In this document: positions 2 to 17,137 of the stretch, piece after piece | Numbering within the stretch: the stretch's first letter is position 1 | Layout of the letters: the number at the start of each line of letters is the position of its first letter | Assembly: GCA_019119815.1 (NCBI GenBank) | Contig: DWWH01000022.1 | Span: 124,001-188,000, forward strand | Origin: Candidatus Eisenbergiella intestinipullorum | GTDB taxonomy: Bacteria; Bacillota; Clostridia; Lachnospirales; Lachnospiraceae | Length of the DNA: 64,000 nucleotides | Reading direction: 5' to 3' | Position numbers and translations under genes: made by a program | Notes under the pieces: model-generated | The model's database searches: none | Seen by the model: the letters and a program-made list of their open reading frames with translations, nothing else | What the model was told of the DNA's origin: nothing

Positions 2-2461
2 CAGAAGTCTCTGACTATCATCTTAAAACACGGCTACGCCCCGGAAGAACAGTACCGCTCCCATGGCGAACAGGGGCCGTGGACGGATGTGTACGCCCTT
101 TGCGCTGTCCTTTACCGGATGCTCACCGGAAAGGTCCCGGAGCCTGCCATGGACCGACTTTTTTCCGATGGGTTAAAACGCCCGGAGGAGTTGGGAGTGA
201 AGGTCAGCCCTGCCGTGTCCGAGACCATCATGCGTGGCCTGGCGGTGAAGAAGGAAGACCGGATTCAGTCTGTGCGGGAGCTGATGGATGCCCTGTATGC
301 GGGCAAGAAGCTGAAAAAGAAAGGAAAGCAGATTCAGATTGGAAAACATCCCATTTCCGCCCGCGCGGCGGCGCTGGCTGTTGGCTGCGTGTTCATCCTT
401 GCGGCGGGGATTGCTGCCGTCGGAATTGGCCTGTCCGGCCGGAATACGCCCTCTGCCGCTGTGGCGGATGGACTGGAAGCAGCCGTTACGGATGGGACAG
501 GAGCGCCGGAATCAGGACAGACGGGAAGAACCGATGCGGACGGAACGGCTTTGCCGGAAGCAGTGGACGGGACTGCCGCAGCTGAAACGGTTCCGGCCTC
601 AGGAACCGGACAGGCGCCGGAGGGAGCCGAAACCCTGATGTTGGAGGAAAAAGCGTACGAACCGGGCGAGCAGATTGTCTGGCCGAAGGCGGAAACCATG
701 ATTGCAGGTGGATACAAGCATCTGGTTTCCCTGCGTGATGACGGGACTGTTCTGGTGGCGGGAGATAATGGCGCAGGACAATGTAATGTGCAGGACTGGG
801 AGTCCGTCGCTGCTGTCTACGCACATGATTCGATTACGGCGGGTCTGCGTACGGACGGTACGGTGGTAGTGGCAGGCCGGGAGGCATTGAGTGAAAGTGT
901 TTCTTCCTGGGAGGAAGTGACCATGCTGGCGTTGGGAATCAACCATATCCTCGGCCTGACGCAGGACGGTAGGGTTCTTTCTGCCGGAACCAATCAGGAA
1001 GGCTGCTGCGAGACAGGAGACTGGGAAAATATCGTGTCCATTTGGGCGGACGACTACCTTTCCGTCGGTATCCGGGAGGACGGGAGCGTGGTGCTTGCCG
1101 GTATGGCCGCAGACACGGAGGAAGAACAGAAAGCAGCTGAGGAGGAACTCGCGTCCTGGACGGGGATACGTCAGATTGTGGTATACAACAATATTTTTTA
1201 TGGCCTGAAGCAGGACGGCACGGTAGTATGCGCCGGAAGGGAAGACGAAAGTCTGAGACAGCAGATTTCCGGATGGAGCGGTATCCGTTCCCTGTCTGTG
1301 GGAGACGGTTTTGTGGCAGGCCTGAGAGAGGACGGTACAGTGGCCGCCGTTCAGTATAGCATAAACGACCAGAGGGCAGAGGTGACGCAGTGGAAGGATG
1401 TGGCCGCGCTGACCGGAACAATGTACAATCTGGCGGCGCTGCTTGAGAACGGAAGGATTCTGGTAACGGAACCATCGCGCAGCGGAAACTGTACGATGGA
1501 GGAAATCCTTTCGCTGTCCGATGCGGTTCAGGCGGCATGGCAGGGTGACAGTCTGGCGGTACTCTGTCAGGACGGAGCGGTCAGAAATACAGGGTATGTG
1601 GAATATTACAGAGATGAAACAACGGAAATAAATGAATGGCAGGATATTTCCGCTATCGCAGCCGCTGGCATAACAATGGGAGGCATCCGAAGGGACGGAA
1701 CGGTAACGAGAACGGCTTTCGGGGGAGCCAGCGTATCCAATGCTCTGATCGAGGAACTCGGCTGGGAAGAGGCGGCCAGAGTGGCGAAGGAGAGAAAAGC
1801 GCAGACGCCCGATCTGATCTCCGGTTGGACGAACGTAAAGGAACTTTCCTTCTCAGAAGGCCATGCGGCAGCCCTCTTGACGGACGGAACCGCTGCAGCG
1901 GCCGGTTTTCCGGAGGATCAGTCGAGTGTGGACTATCGCACCGGCCTGACGCTGGACGGCTCCTGCCAGGTAGACGGCTGGTCGGACCTGAAGCAGGTGC
2001 TGGCCCTGAACGGGGAAACCATCGGCCTGAAAAATGACGGAACCCTTCTGACCACCGGGGAAATGCCAGAAGAATGGAATTCTTATACCGATTTGGAAAG
2101 CATATGGGGATATCAGCGTACAGCCGCCGCCATTCGCTCCGATGGAACGGTGGTATACCTGTACAAAGGCGACGACAGCTACGGCCAGAACAACATCAGC
2201 GGCTGGACGGATATGGTACAGCTTTCCATCGGTGAAAATCATACCGTCGGCCTGCGCTCTGACGGCACGGTCACGGCAGTTGGCGACAACTACGCCGGAC
2301 AGTGCGACGTGGAAGGCTGGAGCGGCGTGGCAAGTATTGCCGCAGGAGAAAGCGGCACCGTGGGAATTACGGAGGACGGCAGAGTGCTCCTTGCGGGAAC
2401 CCTGCCGGGTGATTATTTTGTGGCCGAGACCTGGCCCGCCGTGACGGTGCCGGAGGGATAA
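2..2461 (+). CDS. Hanks-type Ser/Thr kinase with RCC1-like outer domain (5' end outside window)
   Basis: The reading frame is open from base 2, so only the end of the kinase C-lobe is present. It begins at the activation-segment end ([19 protein letters not shown]) and continues through [15 protein letters not shown] basic stretch and one membrane segment (about 355-440) follow, then a Thr/Ala/Gly-rich linker. From about 690 to the end there are many repeats of roughly 40-50 residues of the type 'GLRxDGTVxxAGxNxxGQCxVxxW', which is the RCC1/propeller repeat pattern. The inferred architecture is a cytoplasmic kinase, one transmembrane helix and an extracytoplasmic propeller that could sense a ligand. 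It is a tandem paralogue of the next gene, and its kinase part is nearly identical to it at DNA level. The start and the catalytic HRD/DFG motifs lie outside the window. Confidence 0.85.
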
Positions 2462-2492
2462 CCCAAAGCTTGGAAAAGGAATGGAGATTGAT

Positions 2493-5400
2493 ATGGAACT
2501 GTGGAATCATTTTTGTCCCGGCTGTATGCGGGAGATAAAAGAAAATAAAGCGGTCGGAATCGGAAAGGACGAAGGAAACGCGGAAAAGTCCGCCGGACGC
2601 GGACACGGCCGGACAGATTTTCGCTGTCCTTACTGCGGTTTTTCAGAATCCGGATACAAGCAGAATCCCCGCTGCCTGCCCCTAAATACCATCCTCGCCG
2701 GAAAATACCTGGTAGGGAAAGTCCTCGGTGAGGGCGGCTTCGGCATCACATACATGGGCTACGACCTGAATATGAAGACCCGCATCGCCATCAAGGAATA
2801 TTTCCCCGTGGAGCTGGTCAGCCGCGACACCACCCGTCTCACCTCGCCGGACGGAAGGCCCGTTTCCGGCGGCGGAAGCGACCGTGTGATCTCCTTAAGC
2901 GGCGAGAAAAGCAAAACCTATCAGCAGGGCCTGAAAAAATACGTGGACGAAGCCCGGAATGTTTCTCAGTTCGCGGGCATCCCCGGCATCGTATCGGTGA
3001 AGGATTTCTTTTATGAAAATGATACGGCCTACATCGTGATGGAGTACATAGAAGGCGTGAGCCTGAAGGAGTATCTGCGGCAGAAGGGCGGACAGCTTTC
3101 CGAAGAAGAAGCCCTCGCTATCATGCGGCCGATGCTGGAAGCGCTGGAAAAGGTACACGCGGCGGGAATCGTACATAGGGATATCAGCCCGGACAACATC
3201 ATGCTGACCTTTGGGGAGCAGGGAATGGCGAAACAGGGAAAGGCGGAACAGCCGCCCGCAACCAATACCGTTTCCGCTCCGTCAACCGCAGCATCCGCCG
3301 CCGTTTATGGAGACATCGCCGCCGTCCGTCTCATCGACTTCGGCGCGGCCCGCATGACATCGAAGAACGACCAGAAGTCCCTGACCATTATTCTGAAACA
3401 CGGCTACGCCCCAGAGGAGCAGTACCGTTCCCACGGGGAACAGGGTCCTTGGACGGATGTGTACGCCCTCTGCGCGGTGCTTTACCGGATGCTCACCGGA
3501 AAAGTCCCGGAGCCTGCCATGGACCGGCTTTTCGCTGATGGGTTAAAGCGCCCGGAGGAGCTGGGAGTGAAGGTCACTCCGGCAGTATCGGAAGCCATCA
3601 TGCGCGGCCTCGCGGTGAAGAAGGAAGACCGGATCCAGAGCGTGCGGGAACTGATGGACGCCCTGTATGCAGGAAAGAGGCTGAAAAAGCGCGGAAATGG
3701 AAAGCTGTCCCGTCCGGCTCTGGCCGCCGCGCTGGCGGCAGGCGTGCTGGTTGTGATCCTTGCGGCGGGGATTACAGGCGCACTCCGGACAGGACACGGC
3801 ACAGCCGGAAGGAATGCGGCGTCTGGCCAGAATACGACAAACGGCCAGAATGCGGACAGCCGGAATACAGAGGGTTTGCCGGGCGCGCAAAACCCGGCCG
3901 ATGCCGGAAATCCGGGACAAAACTCCGATAAGGACGCTCTGGCGGAAGAAAACACCCTTGTTCTGGAAGAAGAAACCGAGGAAGAAGACTGGGAGATCCT
4001 TGTGACCAGGACGCCCCAGACCAGCGGCGCGGCCGGAGGGAGCCATGCGGTTTTCGTGCGGGAGGACGGGACAGTGGCTTCCTGCGGAAGCAATACCTTC
4101 GGCCAGAGAAATCTGTCGGAGTGGAGCCGGGTGGCCGCCGTGGCCACGGGCGACAGCTTTACGGCCGGACTGCGGGAAAACGGAACGGTTCTGGTGGCGG
4201 GCGAGCTGGAGGGGAAGGACGATGTGGAGCGCTGGGAAAATGTGACGGCCATCTCCGCCTCCGAAGAGCATCTGCTGGGGCTTACCGCAGACGGAAAAAT
4301 CCTTGCCAACATCGATTATTCGGGCATGGATGCCGGAGAGAATACGGATTTTACGGAATGGGAAAATATCCGCGCCATTTCGGCGGGCCTGTATGTGATG
4401 GCCGCGCTGACGGAGGACGGCCGGGTGCTGACGGTGGGCTTTGACGGCTGGACGCCCGCGGAGATTTCGGGCTGGGAGGATGTAACGGCACTGGCCTGCA
4501 GCCAGAGGATCGTTTACGGTCTGACGGAGGACGGCTCGGTAAAAGCTGCGGATATGTGGTCAAACCAGCCGCCCTATGAGCGGATCGAAGGAATAGAAGA
4601 GCTTCAGAATCTGGTGCAGATCGGCGCCGACATTACCAGCGTGTATGGTGTGACGGCAGACGGAAAGCCATGTCTGGCGGGACAGGAGTATGAAACGCAG
4701 GAAGCTGCGGAAATCTTTGCCGGATGGAATTCCCTTTTCTGCCTGGCAAGGGCGAACGATACCGGAAGCATGGCGGGCCTGGGAACGGATGGAAGCCTGA
4801 TAAAGGGAAACACCAACTATGGAACCAGCACGCCGGAAGAAATGACCGGGATCACGCGCGTTGAGATTTTAAGCGGACTGGACAGCTACGGAACGGCACT
4901 GATCGGAATGACGGAGGACAATCGGTTTATTACCTATGGAGATAACCGGTATGTCCTTACCTCGCAGCTGACAGCCGCCGAACAGGTGAGTCAGATCGTC
5001 GAGCTGGAGTATATGGATTCGGTGGGGCTTTCCTACAGCCCGGCCTGGCTGGACGGAGACGGCACTCTGTACATGGAAAAGGATTTTTGGATCGAACCGG
5101 TTCTGGAGGGCTGCGTTCAGATCGTTCCGGGGAATAAAGATCAGATTTACTGTATCTGCGCGCTCATGGAGAATGGAACGGTGAAGGTACTGTCGGCGGA
5201 ATATGAAGGAACTTTGCCTGATGGAATCCGGGAGGCTGCGGAATGGAACGGCATTACTCAGCTTGCCGGCTGTTCCGACCGCTTTAGGAGCGATAGCATC
5301 ATTCTGGGTCTGAAGGAGGACGGGACAGTGGTATCCGCCGCCACCTCCGGCTTTTCCCAGATGCCGGAGGGTGACTGGACCCAGATCGATTCCCTGTATT

Positions 5401-5708
5401 CGGGAGATTATGCCATCGGCGCCATCCGGAAGGACGGGACGGCCCGGTTTCTGGAGGACGGTCCGGAATACAACTATGGACAGTACAACACCAGCGGATG
5501 GACGGACCTGATTCAGCTCGCTCTGGGCCAGTTCCATACGGCGGGACTTCGCTCCGATGGAACGGTATACGCCACAGGAAGAAACGACGATGGACAGTGC
5601 GATGTGGAAGGCTGGACGGACATGGTCTGGATCGCAGCCGGACCGAGCTGTACCGTGGGCGTCCGTGCGGACGGCACCCTGGAGGTGGCCGGAGAGATCG
5701 GCTGGTAA
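2493..5708 (+). CDS. Transmembrane Ser/Thr protein kinase with N-terminal zinc ribbon and C-terminal RCC1-like repeats
   Basis: A complete Hanks-type kinase. An N-terminal pair of CxxC motifs (CPGC and CPYC, about 40 residues apart) suggests a zinc ribbon. The glycine loop GEGGFG is at about residue 79, the ATP lysine (AIKEY) at about 101, HRDISPDN at about 228 and DFGAAR at about 282. The C-lobe ends near residue 395, a single membrane helix lies at about 409-428, and an Asn/Gly/Glu-rich linker precedes RCC1-like repeats running from about 505 to the end. The family phosphorylates Ser/Thr in the cytoplasm; the propeller should sit outside the membrane (inference). An in-frame ATG at 2481 exists, but the one at 2493 has GGAG six bases upstream, so 2493 is preferred. 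It lies 31 bases after its paralogue and 21 bases before the secreted-protein gene, so they are probably one operon. The repeats replace the PASTA domains usual in Firmicute kinases. Confidence 0.9.
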   Translation: MELWNHFCPGCMREIKENKAVGIGKDEGNAEKSAGRGHGRTDFRCPYCGFSESGYKQNPRCLPLNTILAGKYLVGKVLGEGGFGITYMGYDLNMKTRIAIKEYFPVELVSRDTTRLTSPDGRPVSGGGSDRVISLSGEKSKTYQQGLKKYVDEARNVSQFAGIPGIVSVKDFFYENDTAYIVMEYIEGVSLKEYLRQKGGQLSEEEALAIMRPMLEALEKVHAAGIVHRDISPDNIMLTFGEQGMAKQGKAEQPPATNTVSAPSTAASAAVYGDIAAVRLIDFGAARMTSKNDQKSLTIILKHGYAPEEQYRSHGEQGPWTDVYALCAVLYRMLTGKVPEPAMDRLFADGLKRPEELGVKVTPAVSEAIMRGLAVKKEDRIQSVRELMDALYAGKRLKKRGNGKLSRPALAAALAAGVLVVILAAGITGALRTGHGTAGRNAASGQNTTNGQNADSRNTEGLPGAQNPADAGNPGQNSDKDALAEENTLVLEEETEEEDWEILVTRTPQTSGAAGGSHAVFVREDGTVASCGSNTFGQRNLSEWSRVAAVATGDSFTAGLRENGTVLVAGELEGKDDVERWENVTAISASEEHLLGLTADGKILANIDYSGMDAGENTDFTEWENIRAISAGLYVMAALTEDGRVLTVGFDGWTPAEISGWEDVTALACSQRIVYGLTEDGSVKAADMWSNQPPYERIEGIEELQNLVQIGADITSVYGVTADGKPCLAGQEYETQEAAEIFAGWNSLFCLARANDTGSMAGLGTDGSLIKGNTNYGTSTPEEMTGITRVEILSGLDSYGTALIGMTEDNRFITYGDNRYVLTSQLTAAEQVSQIVELEYMDSVGLSYSPAWLDGDGTLYMEKDFWIEPVLEGCVQIVPGNKDQIYCICALMENGTVKVLSAEYEGTLPDGIREAAEWNGITQLAGCSDRFRSDSIILGLKEDGTVVSAATSGFSQMPEGDWTQIDSLYSGDYAIGAIRKDGTARFLEDGPEYNYGQYNTSGWTDLIQLALGQFHTAGLRSDGTVYATGRNDDGQCDVEGWTDMVWIAAGPSCTVGVRADGTLEVAGEIGW

Positions 5709-5729
5709 AAAGGCATGGAGGGAAGGGGT

Positions 5730-8408
5730 ATGTTTTTTTCAGAGCGAATCAGAAAATCTGGAAAAGAAGAAAAGAATCGAAAAAAAATCGGGCAAATTCA
5801 CCAGGGGGCAGTTCCCTCCTTCGGGACGGGCCTAAGGCTCCTTCCGGTTCTTCTGTGCATGACACTGCTCGCCGGATTTTTCCCGGTACAATCTGCGGCA
5901 TCCGGGATCGTCTCTGGGACAGCGGGGACAGCCTCCGGGCTATCCGGAACCCCGGAGGCAGCAGATTCCGGACAGCCGGTGACGCTGACCGACCTGGGCG
6001 AGCTGGACGCCCCGGAAACCTACCCGGCAAAAGGCGCGCTGTGCCTGCAGGTGGCCCGTTCCAAAAGCATCGGGACGGACGGAGGGACCAGCTACATCTA
6101 TGAGGAGGCTTTCCTTCCCGTAGTGGTGGCGGAGGATCACAGCGTGTACGGGGAGCTGGAGACCCTGGCCGGACTGCTTGGGATGAACGTCCAGTATTTT
6201 GACAGCACCGCCCTCGTCACCTTTTTTGAAACGGACGTATACCTGGCGCTGGGGGATTCCCAGGCCGGATATACCACGCCTTTGTTCAGCGTGATGGCCG
6301 GGATGGGACGTGCTCCCGTCCTGCTGGATCAGATGTGGTATGTCCCTCTGGACGAGTTTTTGAGCCTGACCGGAACGCTCCAGAAATACGGGGAGACAAA
6401 CTGGCTGGGGAAAAAACAGCTCGCTCTGATCCCGCCCCAGAGGACGGTTCTGGACGACATCGGCGCTTTTTACCGGGACGCTTATTCCCGGTACGCGTTC
6501 AGCTATGTGAAGGATCTGGGATATACGGAGGAGCAGGCGGCGGAGCTTGCCGGACAGGCCTCCGTGATCCAGTACGTGGAGGGCATTGGCTCTCTGGATC
6601 TGCGGACCTGGCTTGCCATCGCCTTCGGCGGATATGATGCCGTCCGGTATTATGAAAGCGGCTACGCGGAAACCTTCCTGAGCTGCCTGCTTCAGGAAAA
6701 TGAGGAAATCGCCGTAAAACGCCTGGAGGACAGCAAACAGAATCTGGATTATATGGGCTGCATGCTGGACATCTGCACTTCTGCCATGAAAAAGACCGGG
6801 ACTTCCGGAACCGCAGAGCTGCAGTCGGCCCTGGCGGATACGAAAACGACGCTTTCCATGCAGGGAGCGGGAAGCTATGCGGGAGATTTCGGCCGTTACA
6901 TTACCGCTTATCAGAACTCGGCGACGGCGCTTTCCCATCTCATCAGCCTGGCTGCGCTGGGGCTGACCTTCGGAAATGCGGACGGGCAGATGGCGGATGC
7001 CGCGGAGACCTTTTATGAAAACAGGAATCTTCTCACAGAAAGGTCGATGCGGGAGGATCAGTACCGGACGGTGGAAAAGAAGATCCGCCAGTTTTCCGGC
7101 TCTGCCTCCAAAGCCGCCGTGGATCAGTTCATTCTGGACAATGGAGCGCGCCTGCTTCTGGACGCGGCGGCCATCGCGGAATACGGCGCGGCAAAAACCG
7201 CGGCGGGCGGCTCCGCCCTCTGGAGCGCGTCGGCCAGGCTGGTGGGCGGGGACTGGATCGACGCCTCGGAGAGCTTTCTGGTGGGGATGTTCGGCATGCA
7301 GTATGAGGCGGATGCCGTGGCGCTTGCCAGACAGGAGCTGGACCGCCTGCTTTCGGAGCAGAATACCGCTCTGGGAGAAGCGCAGGAAAAGGAGCTTCGG
7401 AACCTGTTTTTCCACGCCGCGAAGGCCTGCCTGGTGACCCGCACCTACGGCTGCGCGGGCTGCCCCGCCATTCTGGAAAAATACCCGCAGCTTCAGACGA
7501 AGCAGAGCGCGGTCAACGGGGAGCTTTCCTCCATCGCGGCCCGCATCTCCAATCCGGCGGTTCCCTTCGGCCGGCTCCCCGGACAGCTCCTGTCCGCCGG
7601 GCCGTACCGGCAGGAGCATTACAAACATGTGCTTTACAATTTCTGCAGCCTGCGGGGACAGATCCTGGACTGGAAGAACGAACGCCCGGCGAAAAACGTG
7701 CGCGTGGAGGTGGTGAGCAAAAGCGGCGAAAAGCTGGCGGAATTCGTTACTGATAAAAACGGCCGGTTCGAGGCGGAATTTGCTCTGGAAGAGATCAACG
7801 TCCGGGAGCAGACGCCCCTGGTGCAGGAGCTCACCCTCCGCCTGTATTACAAAAGAAATCCCGTGGTGCTGGAGGACATCCAGGCCGACTATTTTCACAG
7901 CTATGAGGTGAACGGCCTGCATGTGGGCCGCAAAACACAGGAAAGTCTGGCGTATGTACAGGGAGCGTCCGTACAGGACGGACAGACCGCGGTGCAGATT
8001 CTGCGCATCGGGCTGGATGAGGACGTATGGAGCCTGGACGCGCCGGACGGCTTCGGCGGGAGCTATCCCGCCTATGTGGCTCTGCCGGGACAGATGCACA
8101 CCGCATCCGACGCGGAGACTGTCCTGCTTGAGGAGGGCGTGGAGCTGGAAACCGTATATGGACGCCTGATGCCGGAGGGCAGCGCGCTGCGCGGGATCCT
8201 GGATTTTGTGAACGAAACCGGAGGCTTTGCGCCGGACGGCCTGACCGAAGCCAGCCTTTCCGGCGCGCAGGAGATTCAGGACTATGTGGACGCCTACTAT
8301 GAGATCAATGGCCAGTATCCCGTTTTTCTGCTGAAAACCGTGAACAGCCTGGTCGTTTCGGCAGAGCCCGCGATGGTGGTGGCAGACGAAGCGGACATTC
8401 CGCGCTGA
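5730..8408 (+). CDS. Large secreted or surface protein, copper-amine-oxidase-N-like domain plus Ig-like domain
   Basis: About 892 residues. The N-terminus is very basic (RIRKSGKEEKNRKK) and is followed by a hydrophobic stretch ending FFPVQSAAS, which fits a signal peptide of about 55 residues. Residues about 115-240 (SVYGELETLAGLLGMNVQYF, then a run ending WLGKKQLALIPPQ) resemble the stalk-like 'copper amine oxidase N-terminal' domain common in Clostridia surface proteins. A helical middle follows. At about 650-700 the stretch KNVRVEVVSKSGEKLAEFVT / DKNGRFEAEF looks like a carboxypeptidase-regulatory or Ig-type beta fold. No catalytic motif was recognised. ATG 5730 has GGAGG eight bases upstream; an in-frame ATG at 5715 is less well placed. 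The position directly after two membrane kinases suggests it belongs to the same envelope system, possibly as a ligand or cell-wall partner. That is inference only. Confidence 0.75.
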   Translation: MFFSERIRKSGKEEKNRKKIGQIHQGAVPSFGTGLRLLPVLLCMTLLAGFFPVQSAASGIVSGTAGTASGLSGTPEAADSGQPVTLTDLGELDAPETYPAKGALCLQVARSKSIGTDGGTSYIYEEAFLPVVVAEDHSVYGELETLAGLLGMNVQYFDSTALVTFFETDVYLALGDSQAGYTTPLFSVMAGMGRAPVLLDQMWYVPLDEFLSLTGTLQKYGETNWLGKKQLALIPPQRTVLDDIGAFYRDAYSRYAFSYVKDLGYTEEQAAELAGQASVIQYVEGIGSLDLRTWLAIAFGGYDAVRYYESGYAETFLSCLLQENEEIAVKRLEDSKQNLDYMGCMLDICTSAMKKTGTSGTAELQSALADTKTTLSMQGAGSYAGDFGRYITAYQNSATALSHLISLAALGLTFGNADGQMADAAETFYENRNLLTERSMREDQYRTVEKKIRQFSGSASKAAVDQFILDNGARLLLDAAAIAEYGAAKTAAGGSALWSASARLVGGDWIDASESFLVGMFGMQYEADAVALARQELDRLLSEQNTALGEAQEKELRNLFFHAAKACLVTRTYGCAGCPAILEKYPQLQTKQSAVNGELSSIAARISNPAVPFGRLPGQLLSAGPYRQEHYKHVLYNFCSLRGQILDWKNERPAKNVRVEVVSKSGEKLAEFVTDKNGRFEAEFALEEINVREQTPLVQELTLRLYYKRNPVVLEDIQADYFHSYEVNGLHVGRKTQESLAYVQGASVQDGQTAVQILRIGLDEDVWSLDAPDGFGGSYPAYVALPGQMHTASDAETVLLEEGVELETVYGRLMPEGSALRGILDFVNETGGFAPDGLTEASLSGAQEIQDYVDAYYEINGQYPVFLLKTVNSLVVSAEPAMVVADEADIPR

Positions 8409-8504
8409 ACATGCGGCAGCCGCTTCCGCGTTCCAGGGCAGCAGGACCGCGCCGGAAACGCTGCCGTGAAGGGGAGAACGGGGCGAAACATAGGTCGGAC
8501 GGCT

Positions 8505-8590
8505 GATTTTCCGCCCGGGAATTTGCGCCGGAGCGTCACAAATTCCCATGAAGGCAGCCCCGTCGCTGCGCTCCGGAATGGAGAATATGA
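8505..8590 (+). promoter_or_regulatory. Leader hairpin resembling the dispersed leader repeat
   Basis: The stretch ATTTGCGCCGGAGCG (8521-8535) is later matched by CGCTCCGGAATGGAGAATATG-like sequence (8568-8589). They form a stem GCCGGAGCG/CGCTCCGG that ends at the ribosome site. The layout copies the leader repeats at 25.9, 48.9 and 51.9 kb, but with changed stem bases. Confidence 0.4.
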
Positions 8591-9279
8591 TGAAAGAAAA
8601 AAAGATGATCCTGATCGCTTCCATATCAGGCGGGGCCGCGCTTCTCATTCTGCTCACGGCCCTCGTGATTCTGATCGGAAGCACTTCCCGTTCGGCGGCC
8701 GGAGCCGCCCGTACCTTTGAAGCGCTGCTTTCGGAGGGAAAGCTTGCGGAGCTGGAGGCCTGCTGTTATCTGCCGGATACGGGACAGGCCCCGGCTCTAT
8801 CCGGAGAAAGCGGAGAGAGTCGGGTCCGCTTCACCACTCCGGCGGAGCTGGCGCAGCACTTCGGCGCGGACGCCGTCCTGGCCGGGCATGATGCGTCGCC
8901 GGAGGAGGAGCTGCTTCCCGTTATCATGCGTTACAGCAGTCTGCGCGTTTCCACCGGCATGGTGATCGGAAGCCGCGCCTCTGCCGCTCTCACCCTCACC
9001 GGCCCGGATTTTACCGCCTGGACGGGCGGTTCCGGCGGGGAAGAGGCTTCTGCCGCTGCGCTTCCGGAGTCTCTTGCCGCTGCCCTGCTGGCATCCGGGG
9101 ACGATCTTCCGGAGGTGCTGGAAGCCTGCCTTGCGGACGGCTCCGTTCCCCTGAGGACGGTGACGCTGCGGATCCCCATGCGGAAGCAGGACGGCTCCTG
9201 GCGTTTCGCAGTGTCCAGGGAGACGGAGGATGCCTGGTTCGGCGGGCTGCTTCTGATGGGAACGGGCCGGAACGGATAA
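8590..9279 (+). CDS. Single-pass membrane-anchored protein of unknown function
   Basis: About 229 residues. A basic N-terminus (MKEKK) is followed by one strongly hydrophobic segment (MILIASISGGAALLILLTAL and onwards), and the rest is soluble and Ala/Glu-rich. This topology fits a small N-terminally anchored extracytoplasmic protein such as a DUF4878-like lipocalin or NTF2-type fold, but I do not recognise the family. ATGs at 8548, 8578, 8587 and 8590 are in frame; 8590 has GGAG six bases upstream and gives the shortest tail before the membrane segment. It follows the secreted protein by 181 bases and precedes a sigma factor, so it may belong to the same envelope cluster. Confidence 0.6.
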   Translation: MKEKKMILIASISGGAALLILLTALVILIGSTSRSAAGAARTFEALLSEGKLAELEACCYLPDTGQAPALSGESGESRVRFTTPAELAQHFGADAVLAGHDASPEEELLPVIMRYSSLRVSTGMVIGSRASAALTLTGPDFTAWTGGSGGEEASAAALPESLAAALLASGDDLPEVLEACLADGSVPLRTVTLRIPMRKQDGSWRFAVSRETEDAWFGGLLLMGTGRNG

Positions 9280-9310
9280 AACGGCCGCTAAAAAAAAAGC
9301 ACCGCCGATG

Positions 9311-9364
9311 TCCCCTTTTTATTTCTGACTCACAATTAGTTTGTGAGAGGGGGAAAAAGGGATG
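9311..9364 (+). promoter_or_regulatory. Possible occluding hairpin over the sigma-factor start
   Basis: TCCCCTTTTT (9311-9320) can pair with AAAAAGGGA (9354-9362), which includes the A of the ATG and lies next to the purine-rich ribosome site. An inner stem CTCACAA/TTGTGAG (9329-9335 with 9341-9347) closes the loop. If this forms in the mRNA, it would hide the start of the sigma gene. Confidence 0.4.
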
Positions 9365-9868
9365 ACGGATTGGGAACTGCTGGAACTGCTTGAGGCAGAC
9401 CCTGGCCTCGGCATACTTGCTCTGATTGAACAATATACGGATCTTCTCAGCTATGTGGTTTCTCTTCGGCTGAGAAATCCGCTGGATATACAGGAATGTG
9501 TGCAGGATACCTTTACGGATTTTTATCTGAGCAGGAAAAATTTCAATCCGGAAAAGGGTACCCTGTCCGCCTATCTGGTTGCCATCGCGAGGCATAAGGC
9601 GATCTACCGCTTCCGGGAAATACAGAAGGAAAAAGAGCTGACCCTTGCCGCAAAGCCGCCGGAAGACCCGGTGGGGATGGAGGAGCATGCCGCGCTGGAG
9701 CACACGCTTTCCCAGCTTGCGGACACCGACGCGAAGGTCCTGCGCATGAAGTATTATGAAGGCTATACGGCCAGAGAGATCGGAGAGATCCTGGGGCTCA
9801 GCCATGAGGCGGTGAAAAAAAGGATTCAGCGCGCGCTGAAAAAGGCCATGTCCCTGATGGCGGAATGA
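9362..9868 (+). CDS. ECF-like RNA polymerase sigma factor
   Basis: 168 residues, the usual length for an ECF sigma factor. The sigma-2 region is at about 20-85 (CVQDTFTDFYLSRKNFNPEK, then YLVAIARHKAIYRFRE). The sigma-4 helix-turn-helix is at about 110-165 (LRMKYYEGYTAREIGEILGL followed by SHEAVKKRIQRALKKAM). These factors redirect RNA polymerase to stress or envelope promoters and are usually held by an anti-sigma protein encoded next door. Here the downstream gene is an ABC exporter behind its own promoter, and no obvious anti-sigma is seen. The membrane-anchored protein just upstream is the only local candidate. The ribosome site is GAGAGGGGG. It may be regulated by the 5' hairpin noted separately. 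Confidence 0.88.
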   Translation: MTDWELLELLEADPGLGILALIEQYTDLLSYVVSLRLRNPLDIQECVQDTFTDFYLSRKNFNPEKGTLSAYLVAIARHKAIYRFREIQKEKELTLAAKPPEDPVGMEEHAALEHTLSQLADTDAKVLRMKYYEGYTAREIGEILGLSHEAVKKRIQRALKKAMSLMAE

Positions 9869-14003: not shown

Positions 14004-14723
14004 GTGATTATAGAATTGAGAGTGAAAAACTGCTACGCTTTTGAGGATGAAATCACATTTTCCATGAAGGCAGATATGCGCAATAAAAAGTTTGGAACCA
14101 ATGTGCACAGAGAAAATCATTTTAATGTGCTGAAAACGGCGGGAATATATGGTCCAAACAATGCGGGGAAAACCTGCCTGATTAAGTGTATCAGAGCGGT
14201 CAAAAAGGTACTGCTGAATCAAAAAAGCGGGCTGATGTCCAATATTTTTTCACAGAACTCCGTATGTGAATTGGGCATAACTTTTTTATCAGCCGGAAGA
14301 AAATTTTCCTATGATTTTAAATACGATGTTGAAAAAGAAGAGTATATCTATGAAGCATTTGGAGAGATTTTGAAAGATCAGTATAACAATGAGAAGGAGG
14401 TCTGCTGGCTGAAAAAAGACAGCATTCATGAAGTATTTGAATGTATTGATGAAGATATCCTGCCCATGATTCCTGTCGTTTCAAAAAACAATCTTCTGTA
14501 CTATGTGATAAATGCCGACAAATTTGAGCATGTCAATGAAATGAAGAGGATTCTTGTCGGATTTGCGGAGAAAATTGATGTTGTTAATATGAATAATATA
14601 CCGATACAGCATACAATTGAACTGATGAAAAATAAAAATCAGATGCAGGAAAAAATTGTAGTGCAATATTCGGCCGAACGGTGTGAAGATTTCGCTTCAG
14701 ACGGTGTGACGGTTTCGGCTTGA
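14004..14723 (+). pseudogene. AAA-family ATPase (SMC/OLD-like), truncated by an IS21 element
   Basis: The N-terminus MIIELRVKNCYAFEDEITFS and Walker A GPNNAGKTCL are typical of AAA_15/OLD-like ATPases found in defence islands. The family usually runs to about 350-450 residues and carries its signature, Walker B and H-motif in the C-terminal half. Here homologous sequence stops near residue 226 (VVQYSAE), and the last residues are read from the end of the insertion sequence. No continuation is seen beyond the element, so insertion was probably followed by deletion. The gene is clearly AT-richer than its neighbours, which suggests horizontal origin. It is very likely non-functional. Confidence 0.75.
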
Positions 14724-14780: not shown

Positions 14781-14799
14781 CTTGCAGCAATGCTGCAAG
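14781..14799 (+). repeat. Hairpin before istA
   Basis: CTTGCAGCA and TGCTGCAAG form a perfect 9-bp stem with one loop base, immediately before the istA ribosome site AAGGAG. It could block translation of readthrough transcripts from outside the element. Confidence 0.5.
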
Positions 14800-14816
14800 A
14801 AAGGAGACAAACAAAT

Positions 14817-16373
14817 ATGCAACCCTGTTCCACGATTTTAGGCATCATAGAAATGCGTTTGAGGGGCATTTCTTACGACGATTGCCGCCGGCGGTATGGC
14901 GTCGGCAACAGCACCATTACCCTCATCATGGATCGTTATACGGCCCATGGCGTTCCCCTGGAGGATCTGAAGGAGCTAAGTGCCACCGATGTGGAATCGA
15001 CCTTTTATCCGCCGGACAATATCCGCCGAAAGGCCGAGGATGTCATGCCGAATTATGAAGCCATCTACGAAAGAATCATGCGTGATGGCAGCAAGGCTAA
15101 CCTCTACTTCATGTGGCTCAAGTACAAGCAGGAACACCCCTCTGGCTACCAGTACACCCAGTTTTGCCACCACTACAACCAGTATCTGAATGCCCACCAT
15201 GGTTCCAAGGCGCTCAGTATGGCCGTGGAACGGGTTCCGGGGGAGCGGATATACATCGACTGGGTCGGGGACCAGCCTGAGCTTCTGGTGGATCCTAAGA
15301 CTGGAGAATTGCAGAAGGTGCATTTCTTTACCACCACCGTCGGTGTCAGCAGTATGGTCTATGCCGAGGCCTTCCTGGATGAAAAACTGCACAGCTTCAT
15401 TGCCGGTACTGTCCACGCTCTGGCATATTACGGAGCGGTGCCCAAGTATCTGGTTCCTGACAACCTCAAAGCAGCCATTACAAAACATACCAAGGACGAG
15501 CTGCTGGTTAACTCTGCATACCAGGACCTGGAACGGTTTTACGATGTGGTGGTGCTCCCTCCTCCTGCCAGAAAGCCCAAGGGAAAGCCTACTGTTGAAA
15601 AAGGAGTCCAGTGGCTGGAAACCCACTTGCTGGAGGAAGTGAAAGAACGGATCTTTTACAGTGTGGAAGATCTGAACCGGGAAGTCCGGCGCATTGTGAA
15701 TGAGCTCAATTCCAGAAAGAAAACCGGAGAGCCTTACTCCAGGCAGGAAGCTTTTGCATCCTTTGACAAGCCGAAGATGCGGCCTTTGTCCAACGGCAGC
15801 TTCTGTCCCTGTGAGTATCGATATTTTGGAAAGGTTCCCAGCAACTACCACCTGCACTACGATGAGCATTACTATTCCGTACCCCACACCCTGTATGGCC
15901 AGCCTGCTTTCCTGAAAGCAACGATGGCTGAAATCCGGATTTGTGACCGAAATAATAAGCTGATTTGCACTCACAGACGGTCTTATACTACTTTCCCCAA
16001 GTACATTACCAAGTCGGAGCATATGCCTTCCGAGCATCGCTATTACCGGGAGGTAAATGAGAAGGACGGCAATTATTACAGGCAGTGGGCCAAGAGCTTT
16101 GGACCTTATACCGTCAAGATGATTGATACTGTTTTGCTGTCCTCTCAGCATGAGGAGCAGTCCTATAACAGTTGCAACGGCATTCTCCATATGTGTACCG
16201 GCCAGTCCAAGCTGTTGGTGGAAGAGGCCGCCCGGCTCTGTGTGGAATCCAATGCCTGCCGGTACTCCTATTTCAAACGGTGTCTGAAGCAGCTGTCGGA
16301 ATTGCCTGCCGGGACAGAGAAGCAGAACCTTCCTGAACACGAGAATCTGCGTGGGAAGGAGGCATACAAGTAA
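14817..16373 (+). CDS. istA: IS21-family transposase IstA
   Basis: About 518 residues. The N-terminal helix-turn-helix region (MRLRGISYDDCRRRYGVGNS) binds the element ends. The DDE integrase core has the segment YIDWVGDQPELLVD and a later VPDNLKAAI with an invariant Asp. The C-terminal part has KMIDTVLLSSQHEEQSYNSC. It catalyses strand cleavage and transfer, with IstB as its ATPase helper. ATG 14817 has AAGGAG ten bases upstream; the longer reading from 14790 starts inside the preceding hairpin. The stop codon TAA shares its last A with the istB ATG (one-base overlap), so the two are translationally coupled. Confidence 0.93.
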   Translation: MQPCSTILGIIEMRLRGISYDDCRRRYGVGNSTITLIMDRYTAHGVPLEDLKELSATDVESTFYPPDNIRRKAEDVMPNYEAIYERIMRDGSKANLYFMWLKYKQEHPSGYQYTQFCHHYNQYLNAHHGSKALSMAVERVPGERIYIDWVGDQPELLVDPKTGELQKVHFFTTTVGVSSMVYAEAFLDEKLHSFIAGTVHALAYYGAVPKYLVPDNLKAAITKHTKDELLVNSAYQDLERFYDVVVLPPPARKPKGKPTVEKGVQWLETHLLEEVKERIFYSVEDLNREVRRIVNELNSRKKTGEPYSRQEAFASFDKPKMRPLSNGSFCPCEYRYFGKVPSNYHLHYDEHYYSVPHTLYGQPAFLKATMAEIRICDRNNKLICTHRRSYTTFPKYITKSEHMPSEHRYYREVNEKDGNYYRQWAKSFGPYTVKMIDTVLLSSQHEEQSYNSCNGILHMCTGQSKLLVEEAARLCVESNACRYSYFKRCLKQLSELPAGTEKQNLPEHENLRGKEAYK

Positions 16374-17137
16374 TGCCATACGAAATATCTCTTTCCGCAG
16401 AGGATTATGCCCTTTGCAGCAAGCTGAAGTCCATGAAGTTTTCCGGTATGGCGGAAGCCCTGGAAGATATCCTTGCAGATCCCAACGCTGATTTAATCCC
16501 ATTTCGGGAAAAGGTATGTCGATTGGTGGATGCCGAGTGGGATCTGCGATACAACAAAAAGCTGAACCGCTATATTAAGAAGGCCACACTGAAATATCCC
16601 CATGCCGATCTGGATGAGACGATCTATGACCCGGAACGGCTGCTGGATGCCAGGGCCATTGAACGGCTGGCCAAATGTGAGTGGATTGAACAGGGAAAGA
16701 ATCTCATGGTCACCGGCAAGACCGGTTCCGGCAAAAGCTATCTGGCCAATGCCTTGGCCATTAGCGCCTTGCGTCAGTTTAAGACGGCCAAGTATTGCAA
16801 GGCCAGCCACCTGATTGACGAATTAAACCGAGCTGAGGCTATGGATTGCTACCGGGAGACGCTGGCCCAGCTGGTATCCTATGATCTTCTGGTCATTGAT
16901 GACTTCGGCCTGATGCAGCTGGATCTGAACAAATGCCGGAATCTTTTTGAGGTTCTGGAATGCCGGGATCCGGGCAAATCCACCATGGTGGTCTCTCAGT
17001 TTCCGGTGAAATCCTGGTATGATCTGTTTCAGGAGCACACCTATGCAGATGCCTGTCTGAACCGCATGCTGAACAACGCATACCGACTGGAAATGAACGG
17101 GAAGAACATGAGAAATCTGAACCCGGTCACCCCCTGA
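16373..17137 (+). CDS. istB: IS21-family helper ATPase IstB
   Basis: 254 residues, the normal family length. It is a DnaC-like AAA+ ATPase with Walker A TGKTGSGKSYLA and Walker B LLVIDDFGL, followed by the sensor segment STMVVSQFPV. IstB remodels target DNA and recruits IstA to it. Its ATG overlaps the last base of istA. Confidence 0.94.
   Translation: MPYEISLSAEDYALCSKLKSMKFSGMAEALEDILADPNADLIPFREKVCRLVDAEWDLRYNKKLNRYIKKATLKYPHADLDETIYDPERLLDARAIERLAKCEWIEQGKNLMVTGKTGSGKSYLANALAISALRQFKTAKYCKASHLIDELNRAEAMDCYRETLAQLVSYDLLVIDDFGLMQLDLNKCRNLFEVLECRDPGKSTMVVSQFPVKSWYDLFQEHTYADACLNRMLNNAYRLEMNGKNMRNLNPVTP

Follow-up and report, generated by a model that had tools for sequence, protein, structure and literature searches.

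An array of transmembrane Ser/Thr kinases with RCC1 ectodomains and a linked secreted protein in an Eisenbergiella genome

Introduction

A transmembrane kinase with an extracellular sensor and a PP2C phosphatase is a well-known bacterial design. The PASTA kinases (PknB, PrkC, StkP), which are thought to sense cell-wall or envelope material, and PknD of Mycobacterium tuberculosis, which has a propeller as its sensor, are Hanks-type kinases with one transmembrane (TM) segment, a C-terminal extracellular sensor and a PP2C partner. To our knowledge, few bacterial receptor kinases have an identified ligand; cell-wall fragments, in the case of the PASTA kinases, are the exception. Propeller repeats of the WD, PQQ or NHL type have already been described on bacterial kinases (PMC1262709). 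RCC1 propellers are known on kinases from plant CR4 (PMC4617170) and from animal NEK8 (PMC11974183). The plant CRINKLY4 receptors (ACR4/CR4; PMC4617170; PDB 7a0j, 7a0k) have an RCC1-related seven-bladed ectodomain with repeats of ~39 amino acids, one TM segment and a Ser/Thr kinase. Kinase, vWA, phosphatase and FHA genes are grouped in novel type VII secretion loci, the TscD/TscE/TscF loci, which encode a TM kinase, a vWA protein, a PPM phosphatase and an FHA protein together (PMC11217815). In Xanthomonas, a transmembrane Hanks-type kinase, PknS, is reported to be connected with an ECF sigma factor, EcfK (PMC13147305). A literature search of incomplete coverage did not find any bacterial kinase described with an RCC1 ectodomain.

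Here, we analysed a stretch of 64,000 nucleotides (the window) from Candidatus Eisenbergiella intestinipullorum, together with the DNA upstream of it. The locus has the same parts as the PASTA kinases and PknD. However, it bears RCC1/BLIP-II double propellers where these have PASTA or NHL domains, and its six paralogues stand in a row with an FHA/VWA set and a secreted protein (SEC) encoded in line. The plant CRINKLY4 ectodomains match our model at Z 21-22, but in the plant receptors the ectodomain is N-terminal and the kinase C-terminal, an order that is reversed here, and the plants have one ring with cysteine-rich repeats, whereas two rings are predicted here. This resemblance is a likeness of design, and no common descent of the whole proteins is claimed. 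The nearest solved fold for the first ring is BLIP-II of Streptomyces (PDB 1jtd, 3qhy), which also has short bacterial blades; BLIP-II is a free secreted beta-lactamase inhibitor, whereas here two rings are placed on a kinase, and binding of beta-lactamase is not implied. The TscD/TscE/TscF loci differ in that WXG100 and EssC were not found here. Compared with PknS-EcfK, the link of the sigma factor (SIG) to the kinases is positional only, and SIG is absent from a relative (G201) that has the kinases.

Results

The window corresponds to positions 124001 to 188000 of contig C74 (window position = C74 position minus 124000) in an assembly, G000, of 3.52 Mb in 94 contigs that is 92.6% complete. 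The initial annotation described two tandem Hanks-type kinases with RCC1 repeats instead of PASTA domains. Both kinases, K5 and K6, are real and have this composition (in K6, RCC1_2 E 2.8e-32 and 110 bits against a cut-off of 22), and a domain search found no PASTA match in any of the receptor kinases, K1 to K6 (NCBI PASTA kinase equivalog 139 against a cut-off of 450). The pair is, however, the end of an array of six receptors accompanied by PP2C, FHA and VWA genes (Table 1), and K5 is cut by the window edge; since its gene starts upstream of that edge, all but the end of its kinase domain lies outside the window. The array extends 22 kb upstream, so that the window contains only its 3' end. 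Encoded in these 22 kb are four further RCC1 kinases, two PP2C proteins, an STK-FHA kinase and five separate FHA proteins, of which one also contains VWA. The whole locus thus has six TM Ser/Thr kinases with RCC1 ectodomains, K1 to K6, of which K3 is frame-broken. The nearest named relatives of the kinases are in chicken-gut Eisenbergiella assemblies (L077, L080).

All locus genes, from the first PP2C to SIG, are on one strand, and the intergenic gaps between K4 and SEC measure 32 bp (K4-K5), 19 bp (K5-K6) and 6 bp (K6-SEC). Promoter-like and terminator-like sites within the block were not above chance level. An ABC transporter pair begins 181 bp 3' of SIG. Elsewhere in the window, an IS21-type pair (IstA-like, 14790-16373; IstB, 16373-17137) lies in segment 14004-17137, at a local dip in G+C (0.46), and it is adjoined by an apparent short AAA-domain gene (14004-14723).

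Table 1 Features of the kinase locus, with positions on contig C74 and in the window.
Feature	C74 position	Window position	Strand	Evidence
PP2C phosphatase	101903-102637
FHA protein with CxxC pairs	102723-103226
VWA-TM-FHA protein	103214-104950
STK-FHA kinase	105007-106365
Second PP2C	106377-107186
FHA protein	107342-108001
TM-FHA protein	108153-109001
K1 receptor kinase	109126-112122
TM-FHA protein	112202-113416
K2 receptor kinase	113488-116754
K3 receptor kinase, frame broken	116910-119988	-7090 to -4012
K4 receptor kinase	120028-123123
K5 receptor kinase, 1101 aa	123156-126461	gene start -844
K5 C-terminal 819 aa: kinase-domain end, TM, RCC1 ectodomain		2-2461	+
K5 TM segment		~371-427	+
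K5 RCC1 ectodomain		~650-2458	+
K6, complete, 1075 aa: CxxC pair, kinase, TM, RCC1 ectodomain	126481-129708	2481-5708	+
K6 kinase domain		2703-3695	+	Pkinase E 9.4e-30; invariant columns
K6 TM segment, residues 413-431		3717-3773	+	hydropathy scan
K6 propeller 1, seven blades, model residues 12-273		4023-4808	+	AlphaFold, VIA-align
K6 propeller 2, seven blades, model residues ~284-568		4839-5693	+	AlphaFold, VIA-align
SEC, secreted, 897 aa, signal peptide	129715-132408	5715-8408	+
TM (membrane protein), 243 aa, one N-terminal TM segment	132548-133279	8548-9279	+
SIG, ECF-type sigma factor, 168 aa	133362-133868	9362-9868	+

The receptor kinases carry the motifs of active enzymes: the G-loop, the catalytic Lys, HRD...N and DFG are intact in them and invariant across seven relatives, and the activation-loop SLT is conserved in the kinase domain of K6. 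A hydropathy scan places a single TM segment in each, with basic residues before it and a C-terminal ectodomain of ~570-680 amino acids after it. From the basic residues preceding the TM segment we infer that the kinase is inside the cell and the ectodomain outside. Paired CxxC motifs are found at the N-terminus of K1, K2 and K6. By reading of the sequences, GR, S-x-x-H and NG are retained in 4 of the 6 FHA domains, and the two CxxC-FHA proteins have R-E-x-H instead. Both PP2C proteins retain DGxGG, GDSR and SDG.

RCC1_2 was recognised in all six ectodomains (75-115 bits, curated cut-off 22). The ectodomain of K6, the only one that was folded, was modelled with AlphaFold2 from residues 504-1075 and seven relatives. 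The model, with a pLDDT of 82 and a pTM of 0.79, has 14 three-stranded blades, which fit two seven-bladed rings, as had been expected when propellers were first proposed. In VIA-align, where rows differing by less than 1 Z unit were treated as tied, ring 1 aligned to BLIP-II with a Z of 22.5 over 231 residues (rmsd 2.9, 22% identity), and the ectodomain aligned to plant CR4 (Z 21.9), UVR8 (21.7) and ACR4 (21.4). Ring 2 aligned to HERC2 RLD2 (Z 21.3, model residues 274-560) and also resembles sugar-binding Photorhabdus lectins (Z ~16). A PDB sequence search with the ectodomain profile matched the propellers of RCC1, HERC, RPGR, UVR8 and a small number of further proteins; BLIP-II was not among these matches and was recovered through fold comparison only. 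The last blade or blades (K6 residues 1018-1075 and their equivalents in K2, K4 and K5) are 54-75% alike between paralogues, against ~14-57% over the remaining ectodomain.

The two halves of the receptors have different histories. In pairs among K2 to K6, the kinase domains are 87-90% identical while the ectodomains are 26-45% identical. Identity drops between K6 residues 384 and 436, where the kinase domain ends and the TM segment lies. The dS values of these pairs are 0.6-1.0 for the kinases and mostly ~2 for the ectodomains, the latter being saturated and rough at ~30% identity. Purifying selection alone is insufficient as a cause of the alike kinases, since kinase dS in K2 to K6 is also below ectodomain dS, against 0.81 (kinase) and 1.10 (ectodomain) in the ortholog pair K1/G402_K1. 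The ectodomain tree contains classes common to several genera, mostly with starred support, and some members are nearly the same in G411, where two ectodomains are 97% (G411_a) and 98% (G411_b) identical to those of K3 and K4, respectively. Two of the ectodomain classes are not clades in the kinase tree (AU p 4e-7 and 1e-6); the groups for this test were taken from the ectodomain tree, that is, from other alignment columns. Moreover, G201_b and G201_c have sister kinase domains (support 98/93) and ectodomains in different classes (AU p 1e-52 against joining them). Judged by these trees, which conflict strongly, the ectodomain classes are of old origin and extend over several genera, and the kinase domains are alike within a lineage. 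Such a conflict would be expected from recombination between neighbouring genes, from gene conversion of the kinase half, or from both.

Two array members are interrupted. K3 has a frameshift at the juxtamembrane region, where the G411_a copy is uninterrupted. Programmed frameshifting is not favoured for K3, as its junction lacks ~20 bases that are present in the uninterrupted copy. In G408, another array member is interrupted inside the ectodomain (L201:12582-15815).

The three genes that follow K6 were initially annotated as a large secreted protein with copper-amine-oxidase-N and Ig-like parts, a single-pass membrane protein and an ECF-like sigma factor. SEC is indeed secreted, but both of its domain names are below threshold, and names scoring below Pfam cut-offs were treated as leads only. 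The copper-amine-oxidase-N part had no Pfam match up to E 1 in SEC of the window and a sub-threshold one (E 0.006) in two SEC relatives of 28-31% identity, and it was rejected on these grounds. The Ig-like part (bMG3/CarboxypepD_reg; residues 645-690) scored E 0.0002-0.0008, under the Pfam cut-offs. The AlphaFold model of SEC had a pLDDT of 35, so SEC was left out of the fold search. The membrane protein is anchored at its N-terminus, as annotated, and encoded on the same strand; a domain search recognised no anti-sigma domain in it. SIG is an ECF-type sigma factor, as annotated (sigma70-ECF 80.9 bits against a cut-off of 42.9), with regions 2 and 4 only.

The genomes compared are mostly metagenome assemblies, in which the absence of a gene may reflect an assembly gap; G200 and G202 are apparently the same assemblies as G408 and G411, as their contig coordinates are identical, and were counted once. 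SEC is present in exactly those genomes of the genus that have RCC1 kinases, 5 of 13 (G000, G402, G405, G408 and G411; Fisher p 0.0008), with G405 counted from the ectodomain end alone on its contig. Orthologs of SIG (84-87%) are found in four of these five genomes, the exception being G405, whose contig stops within SEC; the remaining eight genomes of the genus have none. The order kinase, SEC, TM, SIG is retained in G408, G411 and G402, so the initially proposed neighbourhood does recur in related array-bearing genomes. In G408, a 115-residue nucleotidyltransferase-like ORF that is absent from the window lies between TM and SIG (L164:8831-9178).

Two relatives of SEC, both lipoproteins, are encoded by G201, which lies outside the genus; their identities to SEC are 28 and 31%. 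One contig has the order RCC1 protein, SEC, TM, STK, STK, with the RCC1 gene cut at the contig end; another has SEC with an RCC1 kinase downstream. An NB-ARC/TPR (STAND-type) gene adjoins a SEC relative (L166:10021-12147). SIG was not found in the G201 genome. The initial proposal of a sensing pathway is supported for the propellers and the conserved cluster but not for the sigma factor as the inside target, since G201 keeps the kinase, SEC and TM genes without SIG, which is thus not a universal output.

The linkage of SEC concerns one class of ectodomain. The six RCC1 ectodomains encoded directly before a SEC gene (K6, G402_x, G408_f, G411_f, G405_x and G201_d) fall in one class with a support of 100/99. 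Since they come from related genomes and partly represent a single arrangement passed on by inheritance, they do not count as six independent events. The class also includes L079_615, a kinase-free RCC1 protein of Blautia, and holding it together without this protein was mildly rejected (p 0.03). L079_615 is a 615-residue protein of Blautia SUG67, encoded directly 3' of an RCC1 kinase (L079:14501-16348). Some K6-class members of the array lack their own SEC, and G063 (89% complete) has a K6-class kinase with no SEC found. A profile of five SEC sequences, searched against 397 genomes of the family, returned its own genome and one weak match of 94 residues (G016, E 5e-8); SEC as a general companion of the kinase family was rejected on this result.

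K6 was matched at E <= 1e-20 in 43 of 200 genomes sampled from the same family, nearly always through its kinase domain. A manual count over 20 inspected neighbourhoods gave PP2C nearby in 17, FHA in 13, VWA in 6 and RCC1 in 1. The C-terminal parts of the related kinases include LRR, BspA-type LRR/DUF285, C-type lectin, MORN with Big_2, DUF5050, and PASTA with Listeria-Bacteroides repeats; several different sensors thus occur on this common kinase, the RCC1 form being one of them. Beyond the five genomes of the genus, RCC1 kinases were found in G063, G201 (Clostridiales U_126911), Blautia SUG67 and Ruminococcus RUG12253. Relatives of the LRR type (L059:9463-18239; similar in L060 and L061) lie beside genes for PP2C, a DUF6709 protein, a MoxR ATPase, DUF58 and a transglutaminase, which is a second type of setting for the kinase family. 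The source genome also has a separate STK with a TM segment (G000:C94:54510-55673; L025:4510-5673), adjoining genes that resemble SpoIIGA and sporulation sigma factors.

Discussion

We consider it somewhat probable that the locus encodes a multi-receptor Ser/Thr phosphorylation system, based on phosphothreonine signalling, with SEC as a likely ligand or partner. In this system, six kinases with similar cytoplasmic halves, nearly the same in K2 to K6, would display different RCC1-type double propellers outside the cell. Each ectodomain may bind a surface protein, as BLIP-II binds proteins, and the adjacently encoded SEC would serve the K6 class as ligand or partner. Binding would activate the kinase, which would then phosphorylate its own threonines and those of the FHA/VWA proteins; the FHA proteins would read the phosphothreonine and the two PP2C enzymes would reset the signal. 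SIG may be co-expressed with the array or respond to it, in these species only, and SEC, instead of being a ligand, could itself be an output. The close likeness of the K2 to K6 kinase halves suggests that these receptors feed a single shared output.

Several observations support this reading. The nearest folds are those of a protein-binding protein (BLIP-II) and of receptor-kinase ectodomains (CR4/ACR4). SEC and SIG co-occur with the array, the kinase-SEC-TM order persists in G201 at ~30% SEC identity, SEC is linked to one ectodomain class, and the trees of the two halves conflict. The PP2C, FHA and VWA genes, which stand in the array and again near related kinases in many genomes of the family, support it too, as do the motifs kept by the kinases, the PP2C proteins and most of the FHA domains, and the single TM segment.

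An unlikely alternative is that the ectodomains sense cell-wall or envelope material and not protein; SEC and TM would then be regulated envelope outputs, and the kinases would adjust envelope building. The PASTA and lectin ectodomains on the same kinase family in other genomes agree with this, as do the lectin-like second ring of K6 and SEC itself, which is secreted and has weak matches to carboxypeptidase-regulatory and copper-amine-oxidase-N domains, typical of envelope proteins. However, the top fold matches (BLIP-II, RCC1, UVR8 and HERC2) are protein binders, and SEC is linked to one ectodomain class, not to every kinase of the family. A role of the locus in conflict or anti-phage defence, with the receptor kinases sensing non-self proteins, is considerably less probable. 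Its presence is patchy, its ectodomains are diversified and shuffled, and an NB-ARC/TPR gene stands beside SEC in G201, yet the ectodomain classes are not hypervariable but old and conserved (98% between species for K4). The kinase domains match the PADLOC models PD-T4-6 and mad6 at 140-150 bits, but these models have no given cut-off and may match many kinases of this type; the NCBI MAD6 model scored 120 against a cut-off of 460, and no other known defence gene was found in the parts tested.

The same kinds of parts, a TM kinase, a vWA protein, a PPM phosphatase and an FHA protein, would also suit the regulatory half of a type VII secretion system like that of the TscD/TscE/TscF loci (PMC11217815). 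This is very improbable, and type VII secretion was rejected on the missing WXG100 protein and EssC/EccC ATPase: no WXG100 protein was found in the genome (92.6% complete), no ATPase was recognised in the locus, and the EssC model scored 111 bits against a cut-off of 778, a kind of sub-threshold match that also occurs in 9 of 14 control genomes.

Within the multi-receptor system, the repertoire may have arisen by module exchange, a more specific proposal that we regard as possible though doubtful. Gene conversion would have homogenised the kinase halves in each lineage, with the result that all receptors signal to a common FHA/PP2C output. The ectodomains, in contrast, would belong to four old classes that have persisted across genera and been transferred from kinase to kinase; at least one class would have its cognate secreted protein ligand encoded alongside. 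If this is true, the system would work like the receptor kinases of plants that recognise protein ligands, on a small scale. The combination of a propeller, a TM segment and a Ser/Thr kinase exists in bacteria too, in the order opposite to that of CRINKLY4. The array is a natural domain-swap experiment, with near-identical kinases, very different sensors and one phosphatase/FHA set, and the tie of SEC to one ectodomain class, by position and inheritance, makes a direct binding test possible.
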